From contig NZ_JAFKDE010000010.1 in NCBI RefSeq assembly GCF_017255295.1, forward strand, positions 124,001 through 188,000: a stretch of 64,000 nt of DNA, read 5' to 3'. Under the pieces are notes generated by a model. The model was not told the origin of the DNA. It was given only the letters and a program-made list of their open reading frames with translations, and made no database searches. This DNA is from Nitratireductor aquimarinus. Its GTDB lineage: Bacteria; Pseudomonadota; Alphaproteobacteria; Rhizobiales; Rhizobiaceae. The translations under genes and the position numbers were made by a program. Of this stretch, positions 9,134 to 46,709 are shown one piece after another (positions within the stretch are counted from its first letter, which is position 1; each line of letters starts with the position of its first letter).

Positions 9134-9292
9134 TTGGGCAGTTCGGCGGATCCGAAGGCTTGTACTGCGCCGGATTTTGCAGCACATAAGAGGCAGTCAC
9201 CCGGTCCGGGCCCCTCTGGCAGGCAAGGCGTTGCCTGTGATGTCGGATCGAACGACAACGCGCAAACGCGGCGCAAACCTCGTATCCTTCCA

Positions 9293-44113: not shown

Positions 44114-44148
44114 CGCATCCGGCGCGCGTGCATGGAAGCGGAGGGGAT

Positions 44149-44270
44149 AAAAAAACGACACCCGCCGAGGGAGGAGGTTCGGCGGGTGTCGTTATAGGGT
44201 GACCGGCAATTTTGGGAGGAGGAGGTTGCCGGTCTATTCGTCAGGGTTGGGAGGAGGTAACCCGGACGAA
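44149..44270 (-). ncRNA. Anti-Shine-Dalgarno small RNA, copy 1 (alpha-r14/CcsR-like), with terminator
   Basis: Reading the minus strand, three hairpins follow each other. The first is a 12-nt-arm stem with one mismatch (44237-44248 with 44259-44270). The second is a 9-bp stem GACCGGCAA/TTGCCGGTC (44201-44209 with 44226-44234), and the third a 14-bp perfect stem (44155-44168 with 44179-44192). Each loop contains CCTCCTCCC. The last stem runs into seven T on the minus strand, a textbook terminator. This layout matches rhizobial alpha-r14 (NfeR1) RNAs, which silence mRNAs by pairing with Shine-Dalgarno sequences. A TTGTTT-N17-TATATG promoter candidate lies upstream. Confidence 0.82.
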
Positions 44271-44323
44271 ATCTATGAAACTCAAATCCTGACAGCGCCC
44301 ATATAGGAAGGCTTCTGCCCGGA
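44271..44323 (-). promoter_or_regulatory. Spacer with possible promoter for small RNA copy 1
   Basis: On the minus strand TTGTTT is followed 17 nt later by TATATG, a plausible sigma-70 pair; the -35 element begins at the foot of the preceding hairpin. The downstream leader (GGATTTGAGTTTCATAGATT) resembles the spacer before copy 2, which shares GAGTTTTAGAGATT but has a poorer -10. Confidence 0.4.
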
Positions 44324-44440
44324 AACAACACCCGCCGAGGGAGGAGGTTCGGCGGGTGTCGTTATAGGGTGACCGGCAATTGGGAGGAGGAGATGCCGGT
44401 CGTTTCCTTCGAAGTTGGGAGGAGGATAACTCCGAAGGAA
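44324..44440 (-). ncRNA. Anti-Shine-Dalgarno small RNA, copy 2 (alpha-r14/CcsR-like)
   Basis: The unit repeats the three-hairpin plan on the minus strand: stems 44404-44416 with 44428-44440 (one G-U pair as minus-strand RNA), 44371-44378 with 44394-44401, and 44328-44338 with 44349-44359. All three loops carry CCTCCTCCC. A 54-nt block (44328-44381) is identical to 44158-44211 of copy 1, showing a recent duplication or conversion. The final stem is followed by TTGTTTCC on the minus strand, a poor U-run, so this copy may be released by processing or end inefficiently. Confidence 0.8.
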
Positions 44441-44489
44441 TCTCTAAAACTCTGTCTGGCGGGCTCTTACGAGGCTTACCGCCCTTTTT

Positions 44490-44601
44490 ACAACCCCTGC
44501 CGAGGGAGGAGGTTCGGCAGGGGTTGTTTTGGGTGACCGACAATTGGGAGGAGGAGTTTGTCGGTCATATCCGTCAGGATTGGGAGGAGGTAATCCTGGC
44601 G
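44490..44601 (-). ncRNA. Anti-Shine-Dalgarno small RNA, copy 3 (alpha-r14/CcsR-like)
   Basis: This copy is nearest DUF1127 and starts just after its stop codon. Its stems are 44572-44581 with 44592-44601, 44535-44543 with 44558-44566, and 44490-44503 with 44514-44527 (14 bp); each loop carries CCTCCTCCC. Relative to copies 1 and 2, the second and third stems differ at paired positions on both sides (GACCGACAA/TTGTCGGTC, and a CCCCTGCC stem for CCCGCC), so base-pairing is conserved while sequence changes. No T-run follows on the minus strand, which favours read-through and processing from the DUF1127 transcript. Confidence 0.8.
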
Positions 44602-44622
44602 AAACTGAATTAGCTGCTGTCC

Positions 44623-44763
44623 TTAGACAGACTTGCGTGCAACGAACGGGATGTCGCCGCGGGAGATGCCCAGATCGTTCAGTTCACGGTTGGACAGGCG
44701 GCTCAGCTCGTTGACGGTCTGACGGTAACGGCGCCAGTTGCGGTAGTTGCGAATGATGTTCAT
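44623..44763 (-). CDS. DUF1127 small protein
   Basis: The 46-residue protein MNIIRNYRNWRRYRQTVNEL... is Arg-rich and has the DUF1127 core LSRLSNRELNDLGISRGDI. Small DUF1127 proteins are widespread in Alphaproteobacteria. In Rhodobacter sphaeroides one (CcaF1) is an RNA-binding protein co-transcribed with CcsR small RNAs, and in Agrobacterium others affect phosphate and carbon metabolism. Here three anti-Shine-Dalgarno RNAs follow on the same strand. A CTGTC-CTTA-GACAG hairpin sits over its stop codon. The ATG at 44763 is chosen because upstream codons (to 44862) lie in a promoter-like region with an inverted repeat. Confidence 0.9.
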   Translation of the reverse strand: MNIIRNYRNWRRYRQTVNELSRLSNRELNDLGISRGDIPFVARKSV

Positions 44764-44811
44764 CTTGCTGCTCGCTTCGTTCGAATATTCTGTGTTCGTC
44801 TTGTGAGCAGG

Positions 44812-44840
44812 AGATAGTCCCAAGCCGCCCGGCTTTGAAG
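44812..44840 (-). promoter_or_regulatory. Possible RpoH-type promoter of the DUF1127/sRNA locus
   Basis: On the minus strand CTTCAA is followed after 17 nt by CTATCT, close to alphaproteobacterial RpoH elements (CTTGAA and CCTATAT/CCATAT). It would start transcription about 40 nt before the DUF1127 ATG. In Rhodobacter, the equivalent locus is RpoHI/HII dependent. Confidence 0.4.
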
Positions 44841-44845
44841 TGACA

Positions 44846-44884
44846 ATGTTGCATGACAGCAATGCGATTTGTGCAATGCAACAT
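44846..44884. promoter_or_regulatory. Inverted repeat upstream of DUF1127
   Basis: ATGTTGCAT (44846-44854) and ATGCAACAT (44876-44884) are perfect 9-bp arms 21 nt apart, centred just upstream of the putative promoter. The spacing of about three helical turns between half-site centres suits a dimeric regulator. Confidence 0.5.
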
Positions 44885-45027
44885 GGCCTTTTTGCGGCTG
44901 CTGCATGGCTCGGGTTTGGCGCGGTTCTAATCGGTTTATAAAAAGCACGGTGGGAGCGGGGGATGCAGCCGGTATGCGCAAGGGGGCCGAAGCGATCAAA
45001 AAAGCCCTGAATCTTGCCAATTTTGCT

Positions 45028-45099: not shown

Positions 45100-45184
45100 G
45101 CGGGTGTGGTGGAATTGGTAGACACGCAGGATTTAGGTTCCTGTGGCGCAAGCCGTGGGGGTTCAAGTCCCTCCACCCGCACCA
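45100..45184 (+). tRNA. tRNA-Leu (anticodon UAG)
   Basis: The sequence folds as a long-variable-arm tRNA. The acceptor GCGGGTG pairs with CACCCGC, the anticodon stem CAGGA/TCCTG encloses TTTAGGT (anticodon TAG at its centre), the variable stem is present, the T-loop is GTTCAAGTC, and CCA is encoded. It reads CUA leucine codons. Confidence 0.97.
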
Positions 45185-45272: not shown

Positions 45273-46709
45273 ATGCAGGTAACCGAAACTCTCAATTCAG
45301 GGCTCAAGCGCGAACTTAAGGTCGTTGTTCCTGCCAAGGACATGGAGGCGCGCCTCGCTGAGCGTCTCAACGACGCAAAGGACAAGGTGAACCTCAAGGG
45401 TTTCCGCCCCGGTAAAGTGCCCGCGCAGCACCTGCGCCGCGTCTACGGCAAGTCTTTCATGGCTGAAGTCGTGAACGAGATCCTCGCAGGCACGCAGAGC
45501 ATCCTGACCGAGCGCGGTGAGAAGCCGGCCATTCAGCCGGAAATCTCGATGACCGAGGACGAGAAGGAAGCCGACAAGGTTCTCTCCGGCGATGCCGACT
45601 TCGAATTCTCCATGTCCTATGAAGTCATTCCGCCGATCGAGCTGAAGGATTTCTCCGACATCAAGATCACGCGTCAGGTCTATGACGTGACGGATGAGGA
45701 AGTCGAAGAGCAGGTCAAGCGCGTTGCCGACTCCGCCCGCACCTACGAGGTGAAGAAGGGCAAGGCGGCTGACGGCGACAAGGTCAAGATCGACTATCTC
45801 GGCAAGATCGACGGCGAAGCCTTTGATGGCGGCGCTGCCGAGGATTCCGAGGTCGTGATCGGCATGAACCAGTTCATCGCCGGTTTCGAAGAGCAGCTCG
45901 TGGGCCTGAAGGCCGGCGACGAGAGCACGATCAAGGTCACGTTCCCGGAAGAGTATGCGGCAGCGCATCTCGCCGGCAAGGAAGCCGAGTTCGACATCAA
46001 GGTCAAAGAAGTCTCCAAGCCCAACGAGATGGAGATCAACGACGAGACCGCACAGCAGCTCGGCCTTGAATCGGCTGACAAGCTGCGCGAGATCGTTCGT
46101 GGCCAGCTCGAGAACCAGTTCGGCCAGGTGACCCGCCAGAAGGCGAAGCGTCAGATCCTCGACGCGCTGGATGAGGCTTACAAGTTCGAAGCGCCGTCCA
46201 AGCTCGTGGAAGCCGAGTTCGAGAACATCTGGAACCAGGTGACCCGCGATCTCGAGGCTGCCGGCCGCTCCTTCGAAGACGAAGAGACGACCGAGGAAGA
46301 GGCTCGCGAAGAGTATCAGCGTCTTGCTGAGCGCCGCGTACGTCTGGGCCTGGTTCTCTCCGAGATCGGTGAGAAGGCAGAGGTCAAGGTTGGCGACGAA
46401 GAGATGCAGCGCGCGCTCATCGAATCGATCCGCCGCTACCCGCCGCACCAGCAGCAGGAAATCTACGAGTTCTATCGTCAGAACCCGCAGGCCATGGCCA
46501 ACATCCGTGCGCCGCTCTTCGAGGAGAAGGTCATCGACCATCTGCTCGCTGAAATCGCGGTCACCGACGAGAAGGTCTCCCGCGACGAGCTGATGGCTGA
46601 CGACGAGGACGAGACCGAGGCGAAGCCGGCGAAGAAGGAGAAGGCTGCTCCGAAGAAGAAAGCCGCTCCGAAGAAGGCTGCTGCCAAGAAGAAGGAAGAG
46701 GGCGAATAA
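45273..46709 (+). CDS. tig: Trigger factor (ribosome-associated chaperone and prolyl isomerase)
   Basis: The 478-residue protein opens [20 protein letters not shown], and the ribosome-binding signature GFRPGKVP lies near residues 45-52. A central FKBP-type PPIase domain follows ([20 protein letters not shown] onward), then the helical substrate-binding C-domain. The tail is Lys/Ala-rich ([10 protein letters not shown]), a common alphaproteobacterial extension beyond the E. coli length of 432. It has its own terminator at 46734-46762 and follows the tRNA-Leu gene by about 90 nt. Confidence 0.98.

Follow-up and report, generated by a model that had tools for sequence, protein, structure and literature searches.

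A DUF1127 gene with three tandem alpha-r14 small RNAs in Nitratireductor aquimarinus: a CIN1-type locus behind a predicted LsrB/VtlR promoter

In alphaproteobacteria, a short DUF1127 gene is often accompanied by CcsR-like small RNAs (sRNAs), an arrangement termed the CIN1 locus (PMC10253847, citing Reinkensmeier and Giegerich 2015). The DUF1127 protein CcaF1 of Rhodobacter sphaeroides is reported to bind RNA and to affect CcsR maturation (PMC10253847, PMC12501420), and Salmonella YjiS and small DUF1127 proteins of Agrobacterium are reported to act via proteins (PMC12501420). The alpha-r14 RNA NfeR1 of Sinorhizobium meliloti requires LsrB for its expression (PMC10746234); it is reported to act through its loops, which pair with the ribosome-binding sites of mRNAs and so repress them, and its first two validated targets are described as encoding periplasmic substrate-binding proteins. 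VtlR is reported to activate three DUF1127 genes and AbcR2 in Brucella (PMC12595884), and for Agrobacterium direct activation by VtlR is described for abcR1, vrsA, and atu1667. The locus analysed here is from N. aquimarinus, whose genome sequence comprises 4.57 Mb in 28 contigs; the whole stretch of 64,000 bases that was analysed is referred to as the window. The locus fits the CIN1 definition, as given in one sentence of the source: a short DUF1127 gene is adjoined on the same strand by CcsR-like sRNAs.

A previous reading of this DNA made from the sequence alone, called the sequence-only reading below, had described nine GGGAGGAGG motifs lying opposite minus-strand hairpin loops, in three units of three hairpins behind a 46-residue DUF1127 gene and closed by a terminator. 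This anatomy was confirmed throughout (Table 1). The motifs are located at 44169, 44214, 44249, 44339, 44382, 44417, 44504, 44546, and 44582 (plus-strand coordinates), and a tenth copy is absent from both strands of the whole window. In dinucleotide shuffles, the mean count per window was 0.71 and the maximum three, nine being never reached. A chance or low-complexity origin of the motifs was ruled out by this difference, 9 vs 0.71, and by the presence of the exact pattern of three loops in 290 out of 394 genomes of the family, the reversed-pattern control giving 0 among the matches listed. Every copy of CCTCCTCCC is located in a minus-strand hairpin loop (-10.7 to -28.5 kcal/mol when the loop is constrained to stay open), in agreement with the Rfam structure, and the region from 44145 to 44800 folds far better than shuffled sequences (z -14.1, 20 shuffles). 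The array is co-directional with the DUF1127 gene and downstream of it, the reading frame ending at 44623 and unit 1 starting at 44608. Its last hairpin has a 14-bp stem and is followed by seven T, while no run of four T follows any of the other eight loops. A simple terminator scan reported none in the array, probably because loops of 3-8 are allowed by the scan and the loop at the array end has about 10. Upstream of the DUF1127 locus, a tRNA gene (45100-45181) and an open reading frame (45273-46709), which we take to be a trigger-factor-like gene, are both on the plus strand. Elsewhere in the window, a terC RNA (RF03067) was detected at 9198-9255 on the plus strand with 61.5 bits against a cut-off of 39.9.

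Table 1 Features of the DUF1127/alpha-r14 locus in the window
Feature	Position	Strand	Evidence or remark
DUF1127 small-protein gene, 46 aa + stop	44623..44763	-	PF06568, 3.2e-19
alpha-r14 unit 1	44488..44608	-	RF02344, 94.6 bits; hairpins 44572-44601, 44535-44566, 44490-44527
alpha-r14 unit 2	44323..44444	-	RF02344, 97.3 bits; hairpins 44404-44440, 44371-44401, 44325-44362
alpha-r14 unit 3	44153..44274	-	RF02344, 88.4 bits; hairpins 44237-44270, 44201-44234, 44155-44192
Intrinsic terminator: third hairpin of unit 3 + seven T	44149..44192	-	sequence
Conserved promoter element CATGTTGCATTGCACAAATCGCATTGCTGTCATGCAACATTG, 42 bp	44844..44885	-	conservation among relatives
TGCA-N6-GCAT (S. meliloti LsrB box, PMC10746234)	44862-44875	-	exact match
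CATTGCTGTCATGCA, 12/15 to Brucella VtlR motif (PMC12595884)	44850-44864	-	motif comparison
Predicted -35 CTTCAA	44835..44840	-	seen in many relatives
Predicted -10 CTATCT	44812..44817	-	17 nt after -35, 44 nt after box

The relation to alpha-r14 suggested by the sequence-only reading was borne out by an Rfam search, in which three minus-strand matches to the alpha-r14 model exceeded the cut-off of 58.8 bits. CCUCCUCCC is in the loop of all nine hairpins across the three units. The U-rich tail closing the Rfam model is represented by the seven T of unit 3; units 1 and 2 are without a run of four T. Conservation of the stems had been named beforehand as one of the points on which the reading could fail, and the stems were found to covary among relatives. 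From 136 units, a non-redundant set of 79 was obtained; omission of seven units from four-hairpin arrays left 72 for a flank-swap test, and unintended omission of the second units of L106 and L107 left 70 for an alignment. In the alignment, 27 of 29 pairs were altered on both sides with compensation, 89.2% of cells were paired, and the covariation score was 0.524 vs 0.234 after shuffling. None of 500 shuffles matched the real alignment on any of five measures, and partner sliding abolished the signal. Hairpin 1 was paired in only 67.4% of this alignment, which is ascribed to register shifts between groups. The alignment-free swap test agreed with covariation for all three hairpins: own flanks gave -15.7, -15.5, and -26.6 kcal/mol for hairpins 1, 2, and 3, and flanks swapped between units -6.5, -6.8, and -17.1. 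Hairpin 3 was weakest in this test, with 45 of 72 units beating at least 95% of the swaps.

Loop invariance in both sets arises by construction, because the units were chosen by the exact loop motif. Loop conservation was judged solely from a comparison of eight three-unit arrays of the Nitratireductor group, the window, L061, L062, and L064-L068, excluding N. indicus (L063, 13 loops) and N. aestuarii (L081, 3 loops). Nine copies of the 8-mer CTCCTCCC, by which the positions were located, are present in each of these arrays, and the full CCTCCTCCC is kept in 68 of 72 places. Mean unit identity was 0.876 at the same position across genomes, 0.804 at different positions, and 0.809 within a genome; for 21 of the 24 units the best match was at the same array position. 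Concerted evolution of the three units was not seen in these eight arrays, in which units at the same position are most alike. Since they are closest across genomes, the triplication probably predates the species compared. Recent expansion of arrays does occur, as indicated by two arrays from family genomes (G466 and G445) that are 97% alike internally.

At E 0.001, alpha-r14 was detected in 116 of 121 family genomes, in 109 of them above the cut-off. Across the class, RF02344 was found at E 0.001 in 17 of 289 genomes and above the cut-off only in the window's own; the reach of the model at this level is limited, and the result has no bearing on CcsR-type RNAs. At 18 of 30 high-scoring alpha-r14 loci (L011-L040), a co-directional DUF1127 gene was present no more than about 1.5 kb away. 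In Rhizobium-like loci, it is located behind the RNAs, not before. The named loci are the best 80 of 531 DUF1127 relatives, picked by similarity to the DUF1127 protein and headed by Nitratireductor species (N. pacificus, 100% identity). Among these best 80 of 531, exact loops per array numbered 0, 1, and 2 in seven loci each, 3 in 32, 4 in ten, 5 in four, 6 in three, 7 in one, 8 in three, 9 in five, and 13 in one. Nine loops per array are thus nothing out of the ordinary. The thirteen loops belong to N. indicus (L063, 6149-6840) and reflect a partial tandem duplication, apparently recent, that fused two units. The array of G466 (L305) has a period of 149, and its seven alpha-r14 units in tandem, all above the family cut-off, contain 21 exact loops; that of G445 (L306) contains 16 in six tandem units with a period of 162, without a clear T-run past the last loop. 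In both cases, the DUF1127 gene that precedes the array has a TGCA-N6-GCA box. The array with 21 loops is the largest among the matches listed, and longer ones may exist. For arrays with five or more loops, the last exact loop is followed by a T-run in 19 of 27 and not by a run of four T in the other 8; 4 of the 27 contain such runs, four or five T long, at inner positions.

Some further loci deserve mention. In Aurantimonas (L111), four loop pairs are found behind a DUF1127 gene, downstream of position 2039, and resemble the four two-hairpin CcsR RNAs of Rhodobacter. A locus in a record labelled Xylophilus sp. MAG (L103) resembles those of Brucella-labelled records; Xylophilus is a betaproteobacterium, and the contig is probably mis-binned. 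The window's own genome harbors a fourth, diverged alpha-r14 with two exact loops and 59.8 bits, just above the cut-off (L004 1501-1609; contig C2 220064-220172). It begins some 16 nt downstream of a phasin gene (PF09361) and has no LsrB-type box in its preceding 300 bases; possibly it is a 3'-end-derived RNA of this storage-granule gene. The three other DUF1127 genes of this genome showed no loop motif in their 3-kb loci.

The 42-bp element upstream of the DUF1127 gene contains, besides the exact LsrB box, a 15-mer that agrees with the VtlR motif CAATGCAGCCATGCA in 12 of 15 positions, with three mismatches. A sigma-70 scan based on the E. coli consensus found no promoter here. Counted from the predicted -10, the box is at about -57 to -70 from the predicted start; the LsrB site of NfeR1 is reported at -72 to -57 (PMC10746234). 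Among relatives, 68 of 81 loci have TGCA-N6-GCA no more than 400 bases upstream. In 54 of the 81, a hexamer resembling a -10 starts exactly 44 nt after the box; among spacings of 38-50, those of 43 and 45 nt are seen once each, and the exact spacing is missing in 27 loci. The exact TGCA-N6-GCAT is present within 600 bases upstream of 34 loci (best 80 of 531), with 0.009 expected per stretch, and 27 of the 34 matches lie at -145 to -80. Five exact boxes off this position (L087, L097, L098, L108, and L135, at -338 to -445) may be unrelated, and those of L119 and L134, at about -305 to -311, precede a second, upstream DUF1127 gene. The VtlR motif with up to three mismatches was found at 54 loci (best 80 of 531) vs 2 of 744 control stretches. 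For stand-alone alpha-r14 loci, 6 of 12 examined have TGCA-N6-GCA at -86 or -87 relative to the first loop. The window promoter is designated a predicted LsrB/VtlR promoter. By its sequence, a matching regulator gene of the LsrB/VtlR-like kind is carried by the host genome: a LysR-type gene adjoins trxB, and the gene beside it is presumably Lrp-like. Along its full length, the product of the LysR-type gene shares 67.2% identity with a protein of R. leguminosarum that is annotated VtlR, and its best PDB match is 9hh1_A (4.5e-139), labelled just 'LysR family'. Adjacency of trxB and vtlR is reported to be well conserved among Alphaproteobacteria (PMC7486931).

If the RNAs mask Shine-Dalgarno sequences, the DUF1127 leader may avoid the sequence that is masked. 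GGAGG is absent from 74 of 74 linked DUF1127 start regions and occurs in 67 of the 619 distinct regions used as background. Pairing of the DUF1127 start regions with the 16S tail exceeds that of the background, their pairing with the loop shows no special excess, and in 17 of 24 genus-like groups pairing with the loop is below that predicted from 16S-tail pairing (Wilcoxon p 0.011, binomial p 0.023), the groups being assigned by hand and the background starts called crudely. Seven of the 24 groups show the opposite, raw loop pairing equals background (p 0.96), and GGAGG is missing from most genes anyway, all of which counts against self-sparing; some second DUF1127 genes of Rhizobium-like loci do carry GAGGAG. 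Support for an avoiding leader is modest. By analogy to CcaF1 of R. sphaeroides, the DUF1127 protein might bind these RNAs in cis, and a role in processing would likewise extend to the present protein what is inferred from that single one.

Candidate targets were sought as ribosome sites complementary to the loops. GGAGGA-N4-9-ATG occurs 303 times in the genome vs 45 times for the reversed pattern and 47 times for GGAGGA-N4-9-GTA, and GGGAGGA-N4-9-ATG 89 times vs 11 for its reverse. From the 89 matches, 70 were fetched, the remaining 19 including the array's own antisense, and 60 open reading frames were scanned after nine short ones and one duplicate had been dropped. Transporter components were encoded by 27 of these 60 (11/26 and 16/34 by batch) vs 2 of 20 AAAGGAG controls (Fisher p 0.006), some of the 27 being clustered and hence not independent (e.g. 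L195, L196). They span ABC, TRAP, tripartite tricarboxylate, symporter, and AmiS/UreI types. The control is small, its 30 loci giving 22 reading frames with 80 aa or more, of which 20 were scanned, and one of its two transporters (L247) itself has GGAGGAG. AAAGGAG replaced another control pattern, GAAGGAA, which was dropped because 21 of its 30 reading frames were under 80 aa; two of the nine with at least 80 aa (L198, L201) look like ABC ATPases by eye, so this control would give less contrast. The result is an association of a ribosome-site class with a gene class and hence one of candidate regulation. Instead of regulation, it may mirror the strong ribosome sites that highly expressed genes have. 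A 2-oxoacid dehydrogenase acyltransferase is also among the candidates (L193). By its title, the CcsR paper reportedly concerns the pyruvate dehydrogenase complex.

The analysis establishes RNA family, structure, covariation, order, strand, and the single T-run terminator, together with the conservation of a promoter element, the presence of an activator-like gene, and the class to which the candidate targets belong. We consider it probable that the locus is an LsrB/VtlR-activated operon of CIN1 type whose precursor is cut into sRNAs masking the Shine-Dalgarno sites of uptake mRNAs. An LsrB/VtlR-like LysR activator would switch on the single promoter, and a transcript of about 650 nt, as suggested by the anatomy, would specify the 46-aa DUF1127 protein and three tandem alpha-r14 sRNAs up to the one intrinsic terminator. 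An endonuclease, by analogy RNase E aided by the DUF1127 protein, may cut it into three sRNAs. Through its three CCUCCUCCC loops, each sRNA would then base-pair with Shine-Dalgarno sites of the GGGAGG type and so prevent translation of many mRNAs, chiefly, as complementarity and NfeR1 suggest, those of solute-uptake systems. A broader proposal is possible and is put forward tentatively: redox-sensing LsrB/VtlR, short DUF1127 proteins, and alpha-r14 could form one conserved circuit of the Rhizobiaceae in the wide sense. One promoter would yield a small protein, its own start site spared, together with Shine-Dalgarno masks that shut down nutrient uptake, arranged in an array whose copy number is tunable, with one to seven units and as many as 21 loops.

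Other explanations have to be weighed against the probable operon. The predicted -35 CTTCAA is one base from CTTGAA, the heat-shock -35 consensus, and the same operon could be under a heat-shock sigma factor with the TGCA element being secondary. Such control is reported for ccaF1-CcsR of R. sphaeroides (PMC10253847), but we regard it as unlikely here: the distance between the TGCA-N6-GCA box and the -10 is constant in 54 of 81 loci, which is what an activator site beside polymerase should show, and the box agrees with the LsrB site of NfeR1 both in sequence and in predicted position (PMC10746234). Also quite unlikely is that the array works chiefly without being cut, as a single multivalent RNA with nine loops that increase the dosage or bring several mRNAs together at once. 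This would be in line with the T-run that follows the final loop in 19 of the 27 arrays of at least five loops, with arrays of up to 21 loops, and with loop numbers differing between relatives. However, the family model recognises every unit as a complete alpha-r14, stand-alone alpha-r14 RNAs are described as functioning alone, and the R. sphaeroides precursor is reported to be cut by RNase E (PMC10253847).

The loops might bind the DUF1127 protein or titrate another factor instead of pairing with ribosome-binding sites of mRNAs, a thought suggested by RNA binding of CcaF1 and its effect on CcsR maturation (PMC10253847, PMC12501420). This is improbable in view of stems that change in a compensated way around a loop retained at 68 of 72 places, of the complementarity to a ribosome-site class that is common in the genome (89 vs 11), and of NfeR1, for which action through the loops is described. 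The plus strand could also be the functional one, with GGA in nine hairpin loops acting as a sponge for a protein of the CsrA/RsmA type. GGGAGGAGG in the loops is typical of such sponges. Yet the DUF1127 gene, promoter element, seven-T terminator, and Rfam matches are all on the minus strand, and no T-run is present at the plus-strand end of the array (near 44600-44640); the sponge was rejected on this strand evidence and is given hardly any credence.

The preferred reading, an LsrB/VtlR-activated operon of protein and masking sRNAs, joins three literatures that, as far as they were accessible, are kept separate, on CIN1/CcsR sRNA operons, on the LsrB/VtlR regulon, and on small DUF1127 proteins of unsettled mechanism. 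If it is true, phenotypes of DUF1127 or LsrB mutants of non-pathogenic laboratory strains need splitting into protein and sRNA parts. If the broader circuit holds, VtlR-activated genes undecided between small protein and small RNA, such as atu1667 of Agrobacterium, would be both. The arrays of one to seven units would offer a natural dosage series relating the number of anti-Shine-Dalgarno loops to the strength of repression.

The sequence-only reading had proposed that the locus joins the alpha-r14 and the DUF1127/CcsR designs. As anatomy this holds; as a novelty it does not, the combination having already been named the CIN1 locus, where a DUF1127 gene is likewise beside anti-Shine-Dalgarno RNAs. 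No explicit statement of an operon of LsrB/VtlR control, alpha-r14, and DUF1127 was found in a search with subscription literature mostly outside it, a silence that is for this reason weak evidence of novelty; among the papers listed for Nitratireductor and sRNA, none addresses the subject by its title. NfeR1 of S. meliloti (RF02344) shares the three CCUCCUCCC hairpins and the upstream TGCA-N6-GCAT box. It is reported to have its own promoter (PMC10746234), whereas here three units follow a protein gene behind one shared predicted promoter. The ccaF1-CcsR1-4 operon of R. sphaeroides also combines a DUF1127 gene with several homologous RNAs, reported to be co-transcribed with it, and one terminator (PMC10253847). 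CcaF1 has 71 aa vs 46 aa in the window; four RNAs stand against three RNAs of three hairpins; and the reported RpoHI/RpoHII promoter (PMC10253847) contrasts with the predicted LsrB/VtlR promoter, CTTCAA-N17-CTATCT behind TGCA-N6-GCAT. In the VtlR/LsrB regulon of Brucella, Agrobacterium, and Sinorhizobium, DUF1127 genes and sRNAs are likewise described among the activated genes. The regulon literature, as far as it was accessible, treats the DUF1127 gene and the alpha-r14 RNA apart; in the window they share one predicted operon and one box. What the present comparison appears to add is the predicted LsrB/VtlR promoter with its fixed spacing, the transporter-rich candidate targets, and the copy-number range of the arrays.
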